Origin: an uncultured Mucispirillum sp.
GTDB taxonomy: Bacteria > Chrysiogenota > Deferribacteres > Deferribacterales > Mucispirillaceae
DNA: 64,000 bases
Direction: 5' to 3'
NCBI GenBank assembly: GCA_944325215.1
Contig: CALUZC010000011.1
Coordinates: 1 to 64,000, forward strand
A program made the position numbers and the translations under genes. The notes under the pieces were generated by a model. The model saw nothing but the letters and a program-made list of their open reading frames with translations, did no database searches and had not been told where the DNA came from. The first letter of the stretch is position 1, and every line of letters begins with the position of its first letter. Below are positions 16,585 to 54,724 of this stretch, one piece after another.

Positions 16585-17208
16585 TTATATAACTGATTTC
16601 CTGCTGTAATCTGTTATATCTGTTTTTATCATATCCAGCAGTTTATATACTTCTATTTTTTTATCAATTACCGCTTTTAATTCGTTATCTGTCATACCTG
16701 TAAGCTGTAATATTTTCACTTTTCCATTTACAGTATCCACTGTCCCTGCTTTATGTGCAGTAATCACAAAGCCTGTTAATGCAGATTTACGCTCGGCATC
16801 TATTCCTTGCGTCTGACCAGTATAAATATACTGGTTTTCTTTAAAAACTTTCCCGCTTTCAAATACATAACCTGCTAAATAATTAAATATACTACATATA
16901 TTATTACATTCTTTACTTATATTATCTTCATTCATATCTTTAATGTTTAGTTTTACAGCAAGCTCAAACCCATATCCACTGTATTCGCCGTTTTCTATTT
17001 TTTTTTCTGCTACATCAGAAAAACCTAATGTTACAAATTCAATTATCTCCTTTGTTTTATATAACACAACACTATCAAGCAGAAAATCTCCACCAAATTC
17101 AGCACTGATTAATGGTCTGTAATACTCTGGCTCTATGTGTTTATATTCTTTTTGAAAAAAACTAAGAACTGCACCTGTATTTTGCTCATATAAATTATTT
17201 TCTTTCAT
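16585..17208 (-). CDS. Suppressor-of-fused (SUFU) domain protein
   Basis: 207 residues, all SUFU-like. The C-terminal half reads as the family core: LTGFVITAHKAGTVDTVNGK, then KILQLTGMTDNELKAV and a DITDYSRKSVI end matching the LTDxxRxS tail. Bacterial SUFU proteins are known chiefly as immunity proteins in polymorphic-toxin systems; no toxin gene is next to it. It is cytoplasmic (no signal) and converges on the exported-protein gene with only two bases between stops. Confidence 0.85.
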   Translation of the reverse strand: MKENNLYEQNTGAVLSFFQKEYKHIEPEYYRPLISAEFGGDFLLDSVVLYKTKEIIEFVTLGFSDVAEKKIENGEYSGYGFELAVKLNIKDMNEDNISKECNNICSIFNYLAGYVFESGKVFKENQYIYTGQTQGIDAERKSALTGFVITAHKAGTVDTVNGKVKILQLTGMTDNELKAVIDKKIEVYKLLDMIKTDITDYSRKSVI

Positions 17209-20463: not shown

Positions 20464-20989
20464 TTAGACCTCTCTTTTGCAATATGGGTTTTGCTTCTTC
20501 AAGCTCACTTTGCAATTTTTCACCCTTATACATTATCCATTTTGTATTAGAGTGTGATATATTTTTTGTATTTTTAAGCAGCTCTTTTACAGTGGAAACT
20601 CCTCTTGCTGTTATTATATCATATTTTCTATCTTTTATATTTTCAACTCTTGTATTTAACACTACTATATTTTTTAATTCAAGTTCTTTTACTGCCTGCT
20701 CTAGAAATTTACATTTCTTACCAATACTTTCTATTAATGTTATAGAAATATCAGGATAGTATATTCCAAGCACTATACCGGGAAAACCACCACCACTGCC
20801 TATATCTGCTAAAGTTCCTTCCGGTTTTCCATACTGTTGAAAATAATATATGCTGTCATAATAATGTTTTAAATAAAACTCATCTCGCTCTTTTATTGCT
20901 GTAAGGTTTATTTGGCAGTTTATATGCATATTATAAAAATATGCAAGTTTTTTTTGTATTTTTTCATCAGTTTTTAATATTTTATCCAT
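20402..20989 (-). CDS. rsmG: 16S rRNA (guanine-527-N7) methyltransferase
   Basis: 195 residues. Class I SAM fold with DIGSGGGFPGIVLGIYYP as the SAM loop, and NLTAIKERDEFYLKHYYDSI in the N-terminal helices, typical of RsmG (GidB). Its ATG overlaps the mnmG stop by 8 bases, the classic gidA-gidB pair. The C-terminal coding region overlaps the start of the LpoA-like gene by 62 bases. Confidence 0.96.
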   Translation of the reverse strand: MDKILKTDEKIQKKLAYFYNMHINCQINLTAIKERDEFYLKHYYDSIYYFQQYGKPEGTLADIGSGGGFPGIVLGIYYPDISITLIESIGKKCKFLEQAVKELELKNIVVLNTRVENIKDRKYDIITARGVSTVKELLKNTKNISHSNTKWIMYKGEKLQSELEEAKPILQKRGLNVTNIRIEEPITRTYCIINH

Positions 20990-22850
20990 TATTTTTATAC
21001 TCTTTATTAATTGCTATCTCTAAAACTGAACATGCTGAATAGCTCATTCCAGGTATTCTTAATGCCTGCCCTATAGTTTTTGGCTTTATTTTACTAAGCT
21101 TTTCCACATACTCTCGTCTTAATCCTGATATTTTTGTATAGTCAATATTATCGGGTATTTTTTTATTCTCTAAAGATTGATATTTTTTTATATCCTCTTC
21201 CTGCAAGCTTATATATCCTTCATATTTTATTATTGTTTCCACCTGCTTTGCACTTCTACCTGTAAGTGATGTCAGCCCCATATCCAAAATCATATTAATA
21301 TTTGTTTCTGGCCGCTTTAAAAATTCATAGCATGATATACCACGTTCTAAATTTATACTATATTTTTCCAGCTTTTCTCTATTATCTTTTAACCTTATTG
21401 TTTCGTTCTTAAATTTTTCAACTTCTTTATATACTTCTTCCTTTTCTTTTAAAAACCTTTCATATCTTGTTTTTGATATTAATCCAAATTTATATCCATA
21501 ATCTATTAATCTATATTCTGCATTATCTTCCCTTAGATGAAGCCTGTATTCTCCACGGGAAGTAAACATTCTATATGGCTCATCTACTCCCTTAGTAATT
21601 AAATCATCAGTTAATACTCCAATGTAGCTTTCATTTCTTCCCAATATAAAATGTTCTTTATTATCAATACTTAAGACTGCATTTATACCAGCCATAAGCC
21701 CTTGACATGCTGCTTCTTCATATCCACTTGTTCCATTTATTTGACCTGCAAAGTATAGCCCTTTAATTATTTTTGTTTCATATGTTCCATAAAGAATAGT
21801 TGGTTGATACGCCTCATACTCTATTGCATATGCTGGACGTATAAACTCACATTTTTCTAACCCCTTAATTGTCCTGTATGCTTTAAGCTGTGCATCTACT
21901 GGTAAAGATGTTGAAAAACCGTTTGGATATACTTCTATACTGTCATACCCTTCACGTTCTAATATAATTTGATGCCTTTGGCGTTCTGGAAATTTTGCTA
22001 TTTTATCTTCCATACTTGGGCAGTATCTTGGACCTATTCCCTTATCCTGTGAATTATAATATATACTTCTATGTATATTTTCACTAACTATTTTATGGGT
22101 TTCTTCATTTGTATATGTTGCATAACATTTTATCTGTGGCAGTGGAAATTCTGTATTTTCAAATGAGAAAGGTATTTTTTCTCCCTGCATTTCATAAACT
22201 TCTAGTTTTGAATAATCTATTGTTCTGTAATCTATCCTTGCTGGAGTGCCTGTTTTTAACCTAACAGGTTCAAACCCTATTTCCTGTATTGATTTTGCAA
22301 GTGCAATTGATGGCATCTCATATGTCCTTCCTGCCCTATATGATGTTTCCCCAATAAATACTTTTCCATTTAAAAATGTCCCTGTTGATACTATAATCTT
22401 CCTGCAGGAAAATATTTCCCCCCATATATTCTCTACTGCCTTAACTTCATTATTTTCAGTTATTATTTTACTTACTTCACCCTGTTTTACATCTAAGTTA
22501 TCTTGGCTGATAAGTGTATCTATCATTCTTTTTATATATCTTTTTTTATCTGCCTGCCCTCGTGAGCTTTGAGCTGCTGCTCCTTTTTTACTATTTAGCA
22601 TTTGGAACTGGATACATGATGCATCAATATTTTTAGCCATTTCTCCACCTAATGCATCAATATCTTTAACTAAATTACCTTTTGCAAGCCCACCAATCGC
22701 TGGGTTACAGCTCATTTGTGCAATACTATCTATTGTAGAAGTTAAAAGCAGTGTTTTTGCACCCATTCGTGAAGACGCAAGTGCTGCTTCACAGCCTGCA
22801 TGTCCACCACCAATAACTATTACATCATATCTGTTTAATATAATATTCAT
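20982..22850 (-). CDS. mnmG: tRNA uridine-5-carboxymethylaminomethyl modification enzyme MnmG, copy 1
   Basis: 622 residues. With MnmE it forms the cmnm5 group on U34 of tRNA, using FAD, NADH and methylene-tetrahydrofolate. FAD motif IGGGHAGCEAALASSRMG, redox Cys48 in MSCNPAIGG and the second Cys in GPRYCPSMEDK are present, as is the C-terminal MnmE-binding helical domain (SGLRREYVEKL, QALRIPG). One normally conserved block is unusual: where most MnmG have GPAVRxxRAQ this copy has GAAAQSSRGQ. It sits directly with rsmG. A second full-length copy lies 1.6 kb upstream. Confidence 0.96.
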   Translation of the reverse strand: MNIILNRYDVIVIGGGHAGCEAALASSRMGAKTLLLTSTIDSIAQMSCNPAIGGLAKGNLVKDIDALGGEMAKNIDASCIQFQMLNSKKGAAAQSSRGQADKKRYIKRMIDTLISQDNLDVKQGEVSKIITENNEVKAVENIWGEIFSCRKIIVSTGTFLNGKVFIGETSYRAGRTYEMPSIALAKSIQEIGFEPVRLKTGTPARIDYRTIDYSKLEVYEMQGEKIPFSFENTEFPLPQIKCYATYTNEETHKIVSENIHRSIYYNSQDKGIGPRYCPSMEDKIAKFPERQRHQIILEREGYDSIEVYPNGFSTSLPVDAQLKAYRTIKGLEKCEFIRPAYAIEYEAYQPTILYGTYETKIIKGLYFAGQINGTSGYEEAACQGLMAGINAVLSIDNKEHFILGRNESYIGVLTDDLITKGVDEPYRMFTSRGEYRLHLREDNAEYRLIDYGYKFGLISKTRYERFLKEKEEVYKEVEKFKNETIRLKDNREKLEKYSINLERGISCYEFLKRPETNINMILDMGLTSLTGRSAKQVETIIKYEGYISLQEEDIKKYQSLENKKIPDNIDYTKISGLRREYVEKLSKIKPKTIGQALRIPGMSYSACSVLEIAINKEYKNNG

Positions 22851-24484: not shown

Positions 24485-26338
24485 TTATTTGCTTTTATTA
24501 TATTTATATATTTCCACTGCTAAAACTGAGATAGCTGTTTTTGTAAGCCCTGGTATCCTTAATGCCTGCCCTAATGTTTTTGGTTTTATTTCTTTTAACT
24601 TTTCTGAATACTCATGCCTTAATCCAGAAATATTATCAAAAGAAAAGCCAGCAGGTATCACAACATCTTCAATATCATCTTCTTCTTTCATGCTTGATAT
24701 ATACCCAGAATACTTAACTTTAATTTCAACCTGCCTTGCCTGCCTGCCAGATAAACCACCACCTATAAAAGTTAAAATATCTTCATAATTAAGCTGTGGT
24801 CGTTTTAGCAATTCTTCAGCTTTAAATGACTGACTAATCTCTACATCATACTCTTTTAACCTGTTATCTATTTCATCAGATTTTTTTATAAGAGTATTTT
24901 TTAATCTTTCAATTTCTTTATTTATTTCTTCTTGTTCTTTTTTAAACCTTTCATATCTTGTTTTTGATATTAAACCAAATTTATAACCATACTCAATTAG
25001 TCTTTCTTCTGCATTATCTTCTCTTGTTAAAAGCCTATATTCACTACGAGAAGTAAACATTCTATAAGGTTCTGTAACACCTTTTAACACTAAATCGTCA
25101 GTTAAAACACCAATATAACTTTCATTTCTACCTAATATAAAAGGCTCTTTTTTATCAAGAGATAATACTGCATTAACTCCAGCCATAAATCCTTGTGCTG
25201 CTGCCTCTTCGTATCCACTAGTTCCGTTAACCTGCCCAGCAAAATAAAGACCTTTTACAATCTTACTTTCATAACTGTGATATAGGTTTGTTGGTTGAAA
25301 CGCATCATACTGAATAGCATATGCTGGGCGAATAAATTTTGCATTTTCCATTCCTTTAACTGTTCTATATGCTTTAATTTGAGCTTCAACCGGTATGGAG
25401 CATGAAAACCCATTAACATGCACTTCTTTAGTATTTAAACCTTCTGGCTCAATTACAAGCTTATGTCCTGTTTTTTCAGGAAATTTTAAAACCTTATCTT
25501 CCATACTTGGACAGTATCTTGGACCATTACTTTCCCTTACACCATTATAAAACATACTTTCTTCAGCAGCTTTACGTATTACTTCATGAGTTACTTCATT
25601 AGTATAAGTTCCATAACACTCAATTTGTGGTAACGTTATCTCCTTAGTTTCTGTAGAAAAAGGAATAATAACATCATCACTTTTATATATCTCTAAACCA
25701 TCAAAATTAAGACTATCTATATGCAGCCTTGCTGGAGTATCTGTTTTTAACCTAATAGGGTTAAACCCTATTTTTTTAAGTGATGCAGAAAGAGAGGTCG
25801 ATGAAGGCTCATACATTCTACCAGCACTCATCACATTATCTCCAATAAATATTTCACCACCAATAAATGTTCCACCACATATTACAATTTTTTTGCATCT
25901 AAATTTTTGCCCACATTCAGTGGTTACACCATTCACTTCATTATTGTCTACCAATATATCCTTTACTATACCCTGTTTTACAGAAAGAGACTCTGTATTA
26001 AATATTATACTCTGAAATCGTTCTTTATACAAATATTTATCTGCCTGAGCTCTTGAACACCATACAGCAGGACCTTTTCTTTTATTAAGCACTCTAAACT
26101 GAATACCAGTGGCATCAATATTTTTACCCATTTCACCACCTAATGCGTCCATATCTTTAACTAAATTACCTTTACCTATTCCACCAATAGCAGGGTTGCA
26201 TGGCATTAATGCAATATTATCTACAGATATTGTAAGCAGTAAAGTATCTGCCCCCATTCTAGCAGCTGCTAAAGATGCTTCACATCCTGCATGGCCACCA
26301 CCTATAACTATAACATCATAAATCTTTTCAAAACTCAT
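24485..26338 (-). CDS. mnmG: MnmG paralogue, copy 2
   Basis: 617 residues, full length and uninterrupted. FAD motif IGGGHAGCEASLAAARMG, Cys47 in MPCNPAIGG, GPRYCPSMEDK and the C-terminal helical domain (SGLRHEYSEKL, QALRIPG) are all kept. Unlike copy 1 it has the canonical GPAVWCSRAQADK block, but reads KTDTPAR where MnmG normally has KTGTPxR. The middle of the protein (about 400-470, FILGRNESYIGVLTDDL onward) is near-identical to copy 1, also at the DNA level. It stands alone between two parS sites. It may be a second working enzyme, a form with another substrate, or a recent duplicate. Confidence 0.93.
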   Translation of the reverse strand: MSFEKIYDVIVIGGGHAGCEASLAAARMGADTLLLTISVDNIALMPCNPAIGGIGKGNLVKDMDALGGEMGKNIDATGIQFRVLNKRKGPAVWCSRAQADKYLYKERFQSIIFNTESLSVKQGIVKDILVDNNEVNGVTTECGQKFRCKKIVICGGTFIGGEIFIGDNVMSAGRMYEPSSTSLSASLKKIGFNPIRLKTDTPARLHIDSLNFDGLEIYKSDDVIIPFSTETKEITLPQIECYGTYTNEVTHEVIRKAAEESMFYNGVRESNGPRYCPSMEDKVLKFPEKTGHKLVIEPEGLNTKEVHVNGFSCSIPVEAQIKAYRTVKGMENAKFIRPAYAIQYDAFQPTNLYHSYESKIVKGLYFAGQVNGTSGYEEAAAQGFMAGVNAVLSLDKKEPFILGRNESYIGVLTDDLVLKGVTEPYRMFTSRSEYRLLTREDNAEERLIEYGYKFGLISKTRYERFKKEQEEINKEIERLKNTLIKKSDEIDNRLKEYDVEISQSFKAEELLKRPQLNYEDILTFIGGGLSGRQARQVEIKVKYSGYISSMKEEDDIEDVVIPAGFSFDNISGLRHEYSEKLKEIKPKTLGQALRIPGLTKTAISVLAVEIYKYNKSK

Positions 26339-27512: not shown

Positions 27513-27932
27513 ATATGGATAATTTATGCATCACTTTCTGCAATAGCATCAGGCATAACAACTATATTTTTAAAAAAAGGAGTACGCACAACTAATACAA
27601 GTGTGGCTTTAGCTTTAAGAACATTAGTAGTTTTAATATTTAGTATTATAATTGTGGCAATAGTAGGCTCACAAGGTCAAATATATTTAATAAATAAAAA
27701 GACATGGTTATTTTTAATACTATCTGGGCTTTCCACTGGAGTTGGCTGGTATTACTATTATAAAGCACTGCAAAATGGCCCAACTTCAGCAGTAGCAGCT
27801 ATAGATAAATTAAGTGTGCTTGTAGCAGTAGTTCTATCATACTTCATATTCAATGAGAAAATAAAAGCAAAAGAAGTTATAGGGTTGCTATTAATACTTA
27901 TAGGCACAATAGGCCTTGCATTTAAGTTATAG
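27513..27932 (+). CDS. Half-size EamA/DMT transporter, start codon ATA or lost
   Basis: The frame from 27513 gives 140 residues, the usual size of four-to-five-helix single-EamA proteins, beginning (I)WIIYASLSAIASGITTIFL and ending IGLLLILIGTIGLAFKL. AAGGA lies ~7 bases before codon 27513, but that codon is ATA, where the family has ATG-TGG. The first standard in-frame start is GTG 27603, which would remove the first helix and has no ribosome-binding site. An out-of-frame ATG at 27515 ends quickly. Either a rare ATA start, a start-loss mutation or a sequencing error. It would move small metabolites as a dimer if made. Confidence 0.7.
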   Translation: MWIIYASLSAIASGITTIFLKKGVRTTNTSVALALRTLVVLIFSIIIVAIVGSQGQIYLINKKTWLFLILSGLSTGVGWYYYYKALQNGPTSAVAAIDKLSVLVAVVLSYFIFNEKIKAKEVIGLLLILIGTIGLAFKL

Positions 27933-27939
27933 ATGAAAA

Positions 27940-29238
27940 TTATTCATAATATGAATAGTTTTCATCATAATCTTTTATGTATTTATCTAAAAGTTTATAA
28001 TAAGTATCATCATCATAAAAATTATAAAACGAACGAACAATATTCATATTCCTTAGCTTATATTTATCGCTGAGAGCATAGGAAATACATCTATTTAAAA
28101 GCTGTATTATATCGTCATTTTTTTCATAACTAATTCTAAGTATTGAAGATTCTTCTAAAATTTTATAGAATAAATCTGTAACTTCATCATTACTCAATTT
28201 ATTTAAATCACTAATATTGCTTGTATAATTGTTAAATATTTCATAAAAACGCTCATCATAAGCAGGATAAGTATCATAAAAATGTATTTGAGAAGAATGA
28301 ATAAACCCACGAACTACCCTTCCATCATTATAAGTGCAGGTTATAAAATACCAGTCTTTAAAAACAGATTTTGAAGGTTTTAATATTTTAAACCAACTAT
28401 AAAATAAATTTCTTGGAGGAAAGTTATACATTAAATGAAAATCATAAGCAATTTCATTAGGTTCCAAATAACCTACTTGATGAGTTATCTTATAATTTTC
28501 GTTATTTACATTAATTTTATGTATGATTTTACCATTAGGGCTCTCTCTAACATTAACAAATTTATCATCAGTATCAAGACTAACTTCTACAAAAAAAGAA
28601 TCATAATCATAAAAATAATAAACTATATTATTATCTTCCATTGTATTAATCATTTCGGAATAATCATAATATTTAATGCCTTTTACACTATTTATATTCA
28701 AGTCTTTTACATATAATACAAAAATACTTTCACCAGCTGAACCATATTGTATAATTGCATCTTTATCTAAGACAAAATCAGCTTGGAATAAAATTTCTCC
28801 TGCTATACCATTTTGTAAATAACTTTTGGGAATAACAGTGTTTAATTTATAATTTAAAGGAACGATAAATAAATTATCTAGATTAAAATTGCCACTATCT
28901 ACTTTAAATGAAGTTTTAAAAAAAGGAAAAGGTTTACCAGACTCATTATCTACCCATTTATAATTATAAAAATTAGATACTGTAAGTGTACCAGAAAGTT
29001 TTAATGGTTTATTAGGAAGAAATTTATAAGAACAATCATAATAACCTTCAGTTTCTGAACCACAAAAAGATGAATTATCTATCTTATAATAATTAGTAAT
29101 ATTTTTATTACCTGTTACATTAATTAGTTTTTCAGTATAGTATTTATAAGCTTCACTACTAATAGAATAAGTAAAACTAGTAAAAGGAATAAAAAGAATA
29201 AATAATAAAATAAATGATAAAACTTGTAACTTTTTCAT
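27940..29238 (-). CDS. Exported modular protein A-SH3-helical, unknown family
   Basis: 432 residues. Signal peptide (about 1-24), then a beta-rich domain A (about 45-200) with a Cys pair (FCGSETEGYYDCSYKF) and NKPLKLSGTLTVSN, an SH3b-like domain (about 225-325) starting FVNVRESPNGKIIHKI, and a helical tail (about 335-432). All parts recur in the 786-residue protein coded 22 bases upstream. TGAGGTGA precedes the ATG. No homologue recognised. Secreted or periplasmic; SH3b modules often bind peptidoglycan peptides or surfaces, which is only suggestive here. Confidence 0.75.
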   Translation of the reverse strand: MKKLQVLSFILLFILFIPFTSFTYSISSEAYKYYTEKLINVTGNKNITNYYKIDNSSFCGSETEGYYDCSYKFLPNKPLKLSGTLTVSNFYNYKWVDNESGKPFPFFKTSFKVDSGNFNLDNLFIVPLNYKLNTVIPKSYLQNGIAGEILFQADFVLDKDAIIQYGSAGESIFVLYVKDLNINSVKGIKYYDYSEMINTMEDNNIVYYFYDYDSFFVEVSLDTDDKFVNVRESPNGKIIHKINVNNENYKITHQVGYLEPNEIAYDFHLMYNFPPRNLFYSWFKILKPSKSVFKDWYFITCTYNDGRVVRGFIHSSQIHFYDTYPAYDERFYEIFNNYTSNISDLNKLSNDEVTDLFYKILEESSILRISYEKNDDIIQLLNRCISYALSDKYKLRNMNIVRSFYNFYDDDTYYKLLDKYIKDYDENYSYYE

Positions 29239-29260
29239 AAAATCACCTCATATATTATAA

Positions 29261-31621
29261 CTACTTTTCAACTTTTTTAAGTAAAGATGAATCAATATAG
29301 CCAGATATTGCTTTACTGCCATCATTTACTCCATCTGGAAAATAGATTACTTTAGTATATTTATCTGAACTATTATTATTGTAGTCCATAATATTTTCCC
29401 ATACAATATCAATATCAAAATTAACAGAATATACTACACTGCCATTTTTTAGATTAGTAATTACCTTACCATTAGGAAAATCAAGTAATGCAGCAGAACC
29501 ATTTTTAGATGATATATTATAATAACTAATTGAAACATTTTCATTATCACTAGATTTATAAGCTTCCTTATTATAATATGTAATATTTTTAGCACCTTTT
29601 ATTTGGATATTATTTACAAACAAATTATGAGTATCAGAACTAACTATAAATATTGTATTTTGAGAAAGAGTAAGTTCTACATCATAAGAAACTTTACCTA
29701 AATATCCTTTATTTAACAAATTAGAGTAAATAGAATTATTAATATTATAATTTAGCGGATAAATATTAATATCTCTACTTAAAAAATCATTAAAACTAAA
29801 AGTCAAATTACCAGATTTTGAATCAACTAAAATTTTACCTTGTATGGTAAATGGAGTAGATGAAGTATATCTATAATTACAACTACCAATTTTTGCATCT
29901 TTAATAAACTTATTGGCATCATATATACCATAAAGATTATTAATAAATAAATCATTATCATTACTATGCATAAAAGCACTTTGTGAAAAATCAAGTTTAA
30001 AATTAGAGAAATTTTTTGATGATAAAATACTTTTTAAAGTATAATTACAAGATGAAATAAGAGTATCATCATATAATTTATCATATATGACAAAATCTTT
30101 TAAATATTTATTAATTATTTTATAATAATTATCATCACTAACATAATAATATAAACTATTAATAAAATATACATCAAAGGAAACATCATCTCTCATAATA
30201 AAATTATCACTAAGCAAAAACGATACATATCTATCTACAAGTGTTTGTAGTTTTTGATTTTTTACATAATTTAAACGCTTAATATGAACATCTTCACCTA
30301 TAAAATCATATAATATATCAAATATCTCTTTATAAGATAGAGTATTAATATTTTCAATATTATTAACCCATTCAAGAATACTAGAATAATCAGCATCATG
30401 ATTTATCTCTGATGAATAGATATAACCAAATACTGGTTTTGTACTGTTTTTAGGAAAATATGTTACAAAAAACCAGTTATTAGATATAGGTTTTGAAAAA
30501 CCTAATATTTTATAATAATTATATAAATATCTAGATGGTGGATAACCTTCTCCAAGCCTGTAACCATCTATACCTGGTTCTTTATATCCTTCATAAAAAT
30601 AAACTTTATCACCAGATGAATCATTATGATTGATTTGGTAAACAATTTTACCATTAGGTTTATCTCTTAAATTTGTATAACTATCTTTTGCAGTAAGTTC
30701 ATATGTTTCTATAACATCTGAAAAAGCATAACTTTCTATATCAGTTTTATCATAATACTTAATGTTTTTTACACTATTAATATTTAAGTCTTTTACATAT
30801 ATTGATACTATATCTCCTACTGATGACTTTCCCATTTCAATAATACTATCTTTATCTAATATAAAATCAACATTAAAAGTTATCTCTCCAACTGCACCTG
30901 TTTGAAGATAATTTTTAGGTATTTTAGTATTAAGTTTATAATTTATGGGAACAATAAAAAATTTACTAAAATCAATATCTAAATTATTAGCTTTAAATGA
31001 TGTTTTAAAGTAATTAGGAGCGTTTGTATTGTCTTGATTATATAAATTAGAGACTGTAAGAGTTCCACTTAATTTTAATGGTTTATTATAAGTATATTTA
31101 TAAGAACATATTGAAAAACCTTCGCCATCAATACCACAAAATTTAGTTTTATCTATTTTATAGTAGCTTATAAATTTTTCATCTAAATCTTTTAACTCAT
31201 TGTTATAATGTCCCAAAGTATCATCATCAATACTTGAGTATTGATAATGATACAATTCAGACTTCTTATTTTTAACAATATCCATTATAATATTTTTTTT
31301 TAGTTGATTATATTTATCATCTTTCAAAATTGGTCTTATATTTTTTGAAAGTTTAAGATTATCATTAGGAGAAACAGTATTAGAATCACTAGCTGTTAAT
31401 AAAATATATTTATCAATTAACGATTTCAAATTATCAGTATTGCCACATTTATTATGGTAATCTACATAATAGTCATTTAAAAAATAATAAATTTCATCAT
31501 AATCATTAGAGTTAATTAAATTTTGAATCGTTTGATTAGAATTTTTACAGTAATCACCGTTATTTTGGGCATAAGTGATAAAAGGTACTAATAGTATAAT
31601 TATTGTAAGAAATTTATTCAT
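29261..31621 (-). CDS. Large exported protein with duplicated helical-A-SH3 modules, unknown family
   Basis: 786 residues. Signal peptide ending near ITYAQ (residue 19). The order is helical (about 25-130), domain A (150-295), SH3b-like (305-410), helical (415-520), domain A (540-685), SH3b-like (695-783). Domain A of the first half reads KFCGIDGEGFSICSYKYTYN and NKPLKLSGTLTVSN, the second a diverged GSCNYRYTSSTPFTIQG. SH3-like pieces start TNLRDKPNGKIVYQI and AALLDFPNGKVITNL. Extremely AT-rich and rich in Asn/Tyr/Asp. It pairs with the next gene as paralogues and lies upstream of no recognised partner. Confidence 0.75.
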   Translation of the reverse strand: MNKFLTIIILLVPFITYAQNNGDYCKNSNQTIQNLINSNDYDEIYYFLNDYYVDYHNKCGNTDNLKSLIDKYILLTASDSNTVSPNDNLKLSKNIRPILKDDKYNQLKKNIIMDIVKNKKSELYHYQYSSIDDDTLGHYNNELKDLDEKFISYYKIDKTKFCGIDGEGFSICSYKYTYNKPLKLSGTLTVSNLYNQDNTNAPNYFKTSFKANNLDIDFSKFFIVPINYKLNTKIPKNYLQTGAVGEITFNVDFILDKDSIIEMGKSSVGDIVSIYVKDLNINSVKNIKYYDKTDIESYAFSDVIETYELTAKDSYTNLRDKPNGKIVYQINHNDSSGDKVYFYEGYKEPGIDGYRLGEGYPPSRYLYNYYKILGFSKPISNNWFFVTYFPKNSTKPVFGYIYSSEINHDADYSSILEWVNNIENINTLSYKEIFDILYDFIGEDVHIKRLNYVKNQKLQTLVDRYVSFLLSDNFIMRDDVSFDVYFINSLYYYVSDDNYYKIINKYLKDFVIYDKLYDDTLISSCNYTLKSILSSKNFSNFKLDFSQSAFMHSNDNDLFINNLYGIYDANKFIKDAKIGSCNYRYTSSTPFTIQGKILVDSKSGNLTFSFNDFLSRDINIYPLNYNINNSIYSNLLNKGYLGKVSYDVELTLSQNTIFIVSSDTHNLFVNNIQIKGAKNITYYNKEAYKSSDNENVSISYYNISSKNGSAALLDFPNGKVITNLKNGSVVYSVNFDIDIVWENIMDYNNNSSDKYTKVIYFPDGVNDGSKAISGYIDSSLLKKVEK

Positions 31622-53530: not shown

Positions 53531-54724
53531 TTAGTTTTCCTGTAATTTTTCTACACCAATACCTTTTAGTGTAATTTCTCTTCTTTCTCCTGTATTACTC
53601 ATTACAATCACTTTCTTTGAAAATTCTTCATTTCTATCTGGTGCAAAAGTAAACCCTAAATAACATGACTGACCTTTTTTTAGAAGAAAATTAGTTTCAT
53701 CACTATTTGTAATACAAGAAGATATATTAGTATCGTTTAACACAACAAGTCTAAAATTATTTTCTTTACTTTCAGATAATATAGAATATCTTTGGTCTGT
53801 ATCACTGGAATTAAGTATAAGTATTTTTTGAACATTACCACCAAAATAAACTGTACCAAAATCAAGAACATCTGAAGCACCACCATAAAGCAGGTATTCT
53901 TTTGCACCTGAAAGTATACGTTTGTTAAAAATTAATTTAGAAGTAAAATCCCCAGCTGATGCTGGTTTAAAGCTTATAACAATACCACATGGTTCTTTTT
54001 CAGGTTCTATTATAGTATTATTTTTTATTTTACATGTGGTTAAATTTTTATCAATTTCAAAAGATTTATCACCTTCTAAAGAAAATGTAAGTGGCTGTTT
54101 ACTTTCAGGGTTTTTTAAAATTTTAATATATGCATATTCATCACTTTTTACACCAGCTGTTTCTCCATTCCATTTAATAGAATATTCAGCACGTTTGTTA
54201 TCTGAATTTTCTCCGCTATTATCTGTATAGTATAAAACTGTAAAATCAGGCATATGTATACCTTTGCCCTTGATTTCATATTTTGTGGTAGCATATATTT
54301 CAGTAGTATTGCTTTGCCTGGCAGTTATTACCATTTCTTCATTATAATCTTTTACTTCTGTAGGGGAGAAAGTAATATGAAGCCTGCATTTTTGATTTGC
54401 AGGCAGACTAAATAAAGTCTCTCCATAATGTTGGATACAAGAATCTTTTGTAATGCTTGAAAAAAATTCTTTTGTATCATCATCATAAACATCATCTGTT
54501 AATGGTGTGATTTTTATATCACTTGTCTGCATAGAAGGGTGTGCAGTAAAAGCAATACTATATTCCATTGTATTTTCTGTATTATTTTGTATATTTATAA
54601 CTTTACTAATAGTATTTGTTCTATCTTTATTAAAAAATGAATTACCAAAATTTATTGTTTCTGCATTTACTGCATTAATCATAACAGAGCAAAAAAGTAA
54701 AGTTAATATGATTTTATAATGCAT
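53531..54724 (-). CDS. Exported protein with ASH/Hydin-like (choice-of-anchor-D) repeats
   Basis: 397 residues. Signal peptide ending NAVNAE. Three Ig-like beta-sandwich units can be read, each with the CxLxxTFxPxxxxxF pattern: RLHITFSPTEVKDYNEEM, GIVISFKPASAGDFTSKL and LGFTFAPDRNEEFSKKV, each preceded by a Cys. This is the ASPM-SPD2-Hydin/choice-of-anchor-D style seen in bacterial surface proteins. No C-terminal anchor is evident. Its role is unknown. Confidence 0.7.
   Translation of the reverse strand: MHYKIILTLLFCSVMINAVNAETINFGNSFFNKDRTNTISKVINIQNNTENTMEYSIAFTAHPSMQTSDIKITPLTDDVYDDDTKEFFSSITKDSCIQHYGETLFSLPANQKCRLHITFSPTEVKDYNEEMVITARQSNTTEIYATTKYEIKGKGIHMPDFTVLYYTDNSGENSDNKRAEYSIKWNGETAGVKSDEYAYIKILKNPESKQPLTFSLEGDKSFEIDKNLTTCKIKNNTIIEPEKEPCGIVISFKPASAGDFTSKLIFNKRILSGAKEYLLYGGASDVLDFGTVYFGGNVQKILILNSSDTDQRYSILSESKENNFRLVVLNDTNISSCITNSDETNFLLKKGQSCYLGFTFAPDRNEEFSKKVIVMSNTGERREITLKGIGVEKLQEN

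Follow-up and report, generated by a model that had tools for sequence, protein, structure and literature searches.

A mobile, fast-diverging family of predicted exported A-SH3 proteins in Mucispirillum

Two adjacent genes in a stretch of 64,000 nucleotides of Mucispirillum DNA (the window), taken from a genome of 2.55 Mb, belong to a real modular protein family that is apparently undescribed and is built around an unclassified core domain, domain A. A modular exported family had been proposed for this pair from the letters of the sequence, and the proposal stands, export being predicted from N-terminal sequences alone. The main additions are mobility and rapid divergence. As comparison among genomes of the genus establishes, family members share homologous and duplicated domains, are patchily distributed, have been exchanged between species and evolve fast. 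The preferred reading, held tentatively and at slightly less than even odds, is that the family is accessory and fast-evolving and supplies Mucispirillum with exported adaptor proteins of the cell envelope.

Architecture of the two window genes

The open reading frames of 432 and 786 amino acids lie on the minus strand, separated by a gap of 22 bp and flanked by mnmE on one side and a convergent EamA gene on the other. The 786-aa gene (29261–31621, −), with orthologues in the same slot of other genomes, encodes a putative signal peptide and two successive helical-A-SH3 units. The 432-aa gene (27940–29238, −) lies downstream, its start preceded by a good ribosome site, GAGGTGATTTTATG, and encodes a putative signal peptide, domain A, SH3 and a helical unit. 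Between the 432-aa and EamA genes, one terminator-like stem was found (27932–27966), where 1.0 is expected by chance. The EamA transporter gene itself (27513–27932, +, approximate) is reduced to about half, its two parts fused at a common TATTATAAAGCACTGCAA with about 445 bp missing relative to genomes G008 and G010, and it has ATA at the start where its relatives have ATG.

The 786-aa chain begins with a signal peptide-like N-terminus (MNKFLTIIILLVPFITYA followed by QNN; 31568–31621, −), judged by eye to be without lipobox. Helical unit 1 (residues 19–152; 31166–31567, −) is placed by AlphaFold2 secondary structure with pLDDT of 31–78 by block. It is followed by copy 1 of domain A (residues 153–292; 30746–31165, −), delimited by alignment and model, and by SH3 copy 1 (residues 304–408; 30398–30712, −), which reads NLRDKPNGK ... 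W ... GYIYSS and carries an insertion of ∼50 aa. Helical unit 2 (residues 409–560; 29942–30397, −) rests on homology and the AlphaFold2 model, the divergent copy 2 of domain A (residues 577–684; 29570–29893, −) on a jackknifed profile, and SH3 copy 2 (residues 696–786; 29264–29536, −) on alignment and model. The 432-aa chain has a signal peptide-like N-terminus (residues 1–23; 29170–29238, −), assigned by eye and modeled as a helix over residues 2–15, then an all-beta domain A (residues 51–190; 28669–29088, −; pLDDT 51–92 by block, strands mostly >74), an SH3 with insertion (residues 214–322; 28273–28599, −), recognized by signature residues and BFVD matches, and a C-terminal helical unit, the homologue of 786 helical unit 2 (27955–28272, −). 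By eye, the N-termini of intact members follow the typical n-h-c pattern, and those of the two window chains contain no lipobox.

The order claimed for these modules, A-SH3-helical in the shorter protein and helical-A-SH3 twice in the longer one, is borne out by BLASTP and jackknifed profiles. In a small BLASTP database, residues 25–428 of 432 align to residues 130–517 of 786 with 40% identity (6.5e-90), while the second 786 module is matched at 21% (4e-12). The A1-SH3-helical 2 part of 786 is the counterpart of the 432-aa protein (40–44%), the second module being far more diverged (about 20%). When second-module rows were left out of the profile, those modules were still recovered at 71–76 bits, with 72.8 bits for A2 and SH3 copy 2 of 786 together; the best of 2000 shuffles reached 4.8 bits. 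Judged by these alignments, the likeness of all three A-SH3 copies exceeds chance. The helical units are clearly alike between the 432 tail and 786 unit 2 (34%, 1e-19) and weakly alike between 786 units 1 and 2 (27%, 5e-5).

The motifs by which domain A had been described hold in part. The Cys pair (C59/C69 in 432, C162/C172 in 786), PLKLSGTLTVSN and KDLNINSVK are present in 432 and in the first 786 module and are missing from the second, which has a single Cys and, at the motif positions, the sequences PFTIQGKILVDS and NNIQIKGAK. The Cys pair was also not present in the alignment of paralogues of the type found on contig C22, described below. On the alignments, therefore, the Cys pair and these motifs are subfamily features and not family-wide marks. 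The PNGK described after each domain A does follow all three window copies in the alignment; it is retained even in the second SH3 of 786, from which the NxR and Trp signature residues have been lost.

Elsewhere in the window, two MnmG/GidA paralogues (20982–22850 and 24485–26338, both −) are separated by 1.6 kb, and each has a full GIDA domain; a second copy close to the first recurs in further genomes of the genus as well as in G005. A signal-bearing protein (53531–54724, −) contains repeated Ig-like domains of the ASH/HYDIN/Cep192 type, families named after cilia proteins. A SUFU-domain protein (16585–17208, −; 4e-20) has no match in the compared part of G008. SUFU proteins are predicted immunity proteins of polymorphic toxins.

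Identity of domain A and of the SH3 domain

As modeled, domain A is an all-beta, unclassified domain of ∼120 residues. The AlphaFold2 model of 432 is usable (pLDDT 72.6, pTM 0.72), while that of 786 is weak and of low confidence (pLDDT 65.6, pTM 0.46). The original statement that domain A matches nothing known held against Pfam, NCBIfam, PADLOC and, by sequence, the PDB, and no profile library used placed the chains in any characterized family. Structure prediction, which had been proposed as a check on domain A, was followed by Foldseek searches of the PDB and BFVD with the whole 432 and whole 786 models, and gave no reliable match for the domain. The only library trace that bears on it is phrog_2459, a family whose function is not known, which weakly matches residues 672–746 of 786 (4e-5) across the junction of A2 and SH3. 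A lead offered by DUF4431 (PF14485), a small beta domain with an LxGTL-type start, was rejected: it was not among the Pfam families found for 24 members at E-values up to 10, a PF14485 search of the genus did not touch the family loci, and its sole match in the phylum (L063, in G039), with no convincing gene among its open reading frames, was taken as chance.

The SH3-like units are bacterial SH3 (SH3b) domains, as had been suspected, with Foldseek probabilities of up to 1.0. The 786 model matches the bacterial-type SH3 9ovi (probability 1.00, TM 0.69 on the target) and 2kt8 (probability 0.99); these are matches of the whole chain and may lie in either SH3 copy, and their E-values are weak (0.1–0.3) despite a probability near 1. 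Two BFVD entries, one a peptidoglycan endopeptidase from a phage and the other a protein of 82 aa, match the 432 model across 108 columns (probability 0.99). SH3_3 (PF08239) proteins share the NxR..PNGK start, the Trp, the GYIHSS end and the SH3b fold. The best score against SH3_3 is nevertheless 18.4 bits in one search, under the curated Pfam cut-off of 27, and the best E-value in another is 7e-4. The present proteins differ further in the ∼50–60 aa insertion of the long forms and in the fusion to an unclassified domain, and searches of the chains with Pfam and NCBIfam revealed no catalytic domain (NlpC/P60, amidase or CHAP).

Distribution, transfer and rate of change

A survey of copy number and order in relatives was carried out by searching an A-SH3 alignment against the genus and the phylum Deferribacterota (51 genomes). 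It located several loci with the A-SH3 pair as the core unit. Members occur in six of the ten Mucispirillum genomes, mostly as intact open reading frames, so that a locally decayed sequence without homologues, which had been envisaged, is not what the window contains. Outside the genus, the phylum search gave one weak SH3-sized match in one genome of the same taxonomic family. Plasmid and phage collections gave no match, nor did viral contigs queried with a single protein, and a scan of genome contigs with six short 786 peptides, which may miss distant relatives in Campylobacterota or other phyla, matched Mucispirillum only. Restriction of the family to Mucispirillum is provisional, because the profile searches covered Deferribacterota only.

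The window genome holds A-SH3 proteins at three loci. The slot beside mnmE contains 786 in G008, G010 and G011 (orthologues 92–95% identical), 786 together with 432 in the window genome, and is empty in G006, G009 and G012. The 786-type frames are intact at 786–789 aa in three species, and 432 was seen in the window genome only, with genus and phylum searched. In the single-contig genome G007, which gave no A-SH3 match, the mnmE-EamA slot (L027, 7420–9236) is occupied by a C5 DNA methyltransferase-like gene with its partner, both named by reading the sequence, in place of A-SH3 genes, and the slot therefore seems to accommodate variable cargo. The second locus is a cluster of helical-A-SH3 chains beside a radical-SAM gene on contig C22, with four copies in the window genome and two each in G008 and G010. 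The array neighbors (L020, 960–7493) encode exported or membrane-anchored products that Pfam does not match at 0.001 or better; for some of them, divergence is far greater in G010 than in G008. At the third locus, a single A-SH3 gene adjoins queD wherever the neighbor was read; it occurs in six genomes in a minimal form of about 300 aa (signal, A, SH3), which is probably the ancestral one since it is both the simplest and the most widespread. G010 has an additional, more divergent A-like-SH3 protein of 285 aa. Broken copies comprise a frame break near residue 111 of 786 in G008, a stop in the queD-linked gene of G006 and an SH3-less copy in C22; the genomes being partly MAGs, broken frames may be assembly errors.

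The 786 gene has been transferred recently between species. Its dS to G011 is 0.092, as compared with 0.370 for mnmE, 0.578 for gyrA, and 0.918 and 1.259 for MTase and mnmG2, a gap that argues for such an event. Nucleotide identity with G011 is 91–99% in the gene and 67–90% in most flanks, with the exception of the adjoining part of mnmE (about 92–93%). Since the raised identity continues into mnmE, flanking homology was probably the route.

Rapid divergence is seen at the queD locus. Window orthologues in the window genome and G008 are mostly 83–99% identical, exported proteins included, as against 55% for the queD-linked A-SH3 protein; in the comparison with G010 it is again 55% identical, while queD, rsuA and mnmE are 98–100% identical, with 99–100% for queD and rsuA. 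Between G008 and G006, by contrast, the queD-linked A-SH3 proteins are 92% identical though mnmE is only 74% identical. In the queD-linked gene dN/dS is 0.59, against about 0.07 or less in upstream neighbors. Import alone does not account for this divergence: the dS of 0.55 is the same as for trpS and scpA (0.50–0.63), and the excess is therefore protein change. In the C22 cluster, the A-SH3 genes are 64–88% identical to those of G008 and their neighbors 94–100%, a contrast that may be exaggerated by comparison of non-orthologous paralogues. Most C22-type comparisons show the tightest constraint in domain A, the helical and SH3 parts being looser (SH3 dN/dS 0.33–0.91). Whole-gene dN/dS is mostly <0.6, and 786-type frames persist in three species, which makes decaying paralogues without present function a very improbable account despite the break in G008 786, the stop in G006 and the SH3-less C22 copy.

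Possible roles at the cell envelope

Under the preferred reading as envelope adaptors, domain A followed by SH3b is the core unit, found in its simplest form, signal-A-SH3, beside queD. An N-terminal helical module would have been joined to it, with later duplication into tandem arrays; in the window, 786 joins two units, and 432 would be a long-standing copy of its middle portion. The N-termini suggest Sec export of the chain, which would then remain in the periplasm or envelope. By analogy, the ligand of the SH3b domains may be an envelope protein or the stem peptides of peptidoglycan, and domain A and the helical modules may bind a variable partner. Non-enzymatic exported SH3b proteins proposed to bind the wall have precedents in Csd5 and TagV (PMC3310797 and PMC7614798). 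Csd5 of Helicobacter pylori likewise has a signal or membrane N-terminus and a C-terminal bacterial SH3, with no enzyme activity described in the available portion of its source; compared by description and not by sequence, it differs as a cell-shape factor for which that portion mentions no A domain (PMC3310797). TagV of Serratia marcescens is also exported and has SH3b, with peptidoglycan as its proposed ligand, but is a 166-aa outer-membrane lipoprotein within a T6SS cluster (PMC7614798), whereas the proteins described here have neither lipobox nor, in the neighborhoods read, T6SS linkage. Several points count against the adaptor reading: SH3 copy 2 of 786 is without the signature Arg and Trp, the SH3 dN/dS in C22-type arrays fits poorly with an invariant peptidoglycan ligand, and the SH3 matches of 786 have weak E-values and come from a model of low confidence.

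That the genes are patchy, tandem, swapped and fast-changing suggests a role in biological conflict (with rival toxins, phage or host surveillance) over housekeeping wall building. The main rival explanation, which is unlikely but deserves to be kept in mind, is that these are orphan arrays of periplasmic immunity proteins, each variant directed against a specific rival toxin, e.g. a wall-targeting type VI effector. Signal peptides, tandem divergent copies, decayed copies, interspecies exchange and fast divergence would all be expected of such proteins; M. schaedleri has a T6SS (PMC5285517), Hcp genes occur in the window genome, and the G007 slot holds the restriction-modification-like pair named from its sequence. 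Yet the Hcp genes lie on other contigs, no toxin or T6SS gene was recognized in the stretches read around family members, PADLOC gave no match, and at 786 aa the longer protein is big for this role. A bolder proposal is considered speculative and still less likely: domain A would represent a new fold family, and mucus-dwelling Mucispirillum would have built around it a polymorphic system of self-protection or recognition, with cassette-like swapping between species and reordering of exported A-SH3 proteins.

Marginally less probable again is a housekeeping envelope scaffold like Csd5, which would support helical cell shape by holding wall enzymes at the peptidoglycan. The SH3b, the signal peptide, the place of the queD-linked member beside queD wherever its neighbor was read, and the Csd5 precedent itself (PMC3310797) agree with it, but a single-contig genome without a match, 55% identity next to neighbors 98–100% identical, and tandem arrays with broken copies do not. 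Action of a secreted or surface protein at host mucus is improbable: the mucus habitat and rapid divergence would fit, as would an exported SH3-ankyrin protein in the same genome, but apart from the signal peptide the family yielded no route of export, and neither an anchor nor an adhesin fold was found. The gene for that SH3-ankyrin protein (L062, 751–1821; L059, 1420–2489), which also bears a signal, lies on contig C26 of the window genome and adjoins a row of lipoprotein-like genes; in G008 its frame is broken into two open reading frames.

Mucispirillum dwells in intestinal mucus and has been linked to inflammation in mice (PMC5285517). A variable, exchanged and unclassified exported family is a natural candidate for what separates species at the mucosa. 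For structural biologists, domain A offers a domain without recognized relative, and the series from one-unit to two-unit proteins provides a view of how modular exported proteins get assembled.
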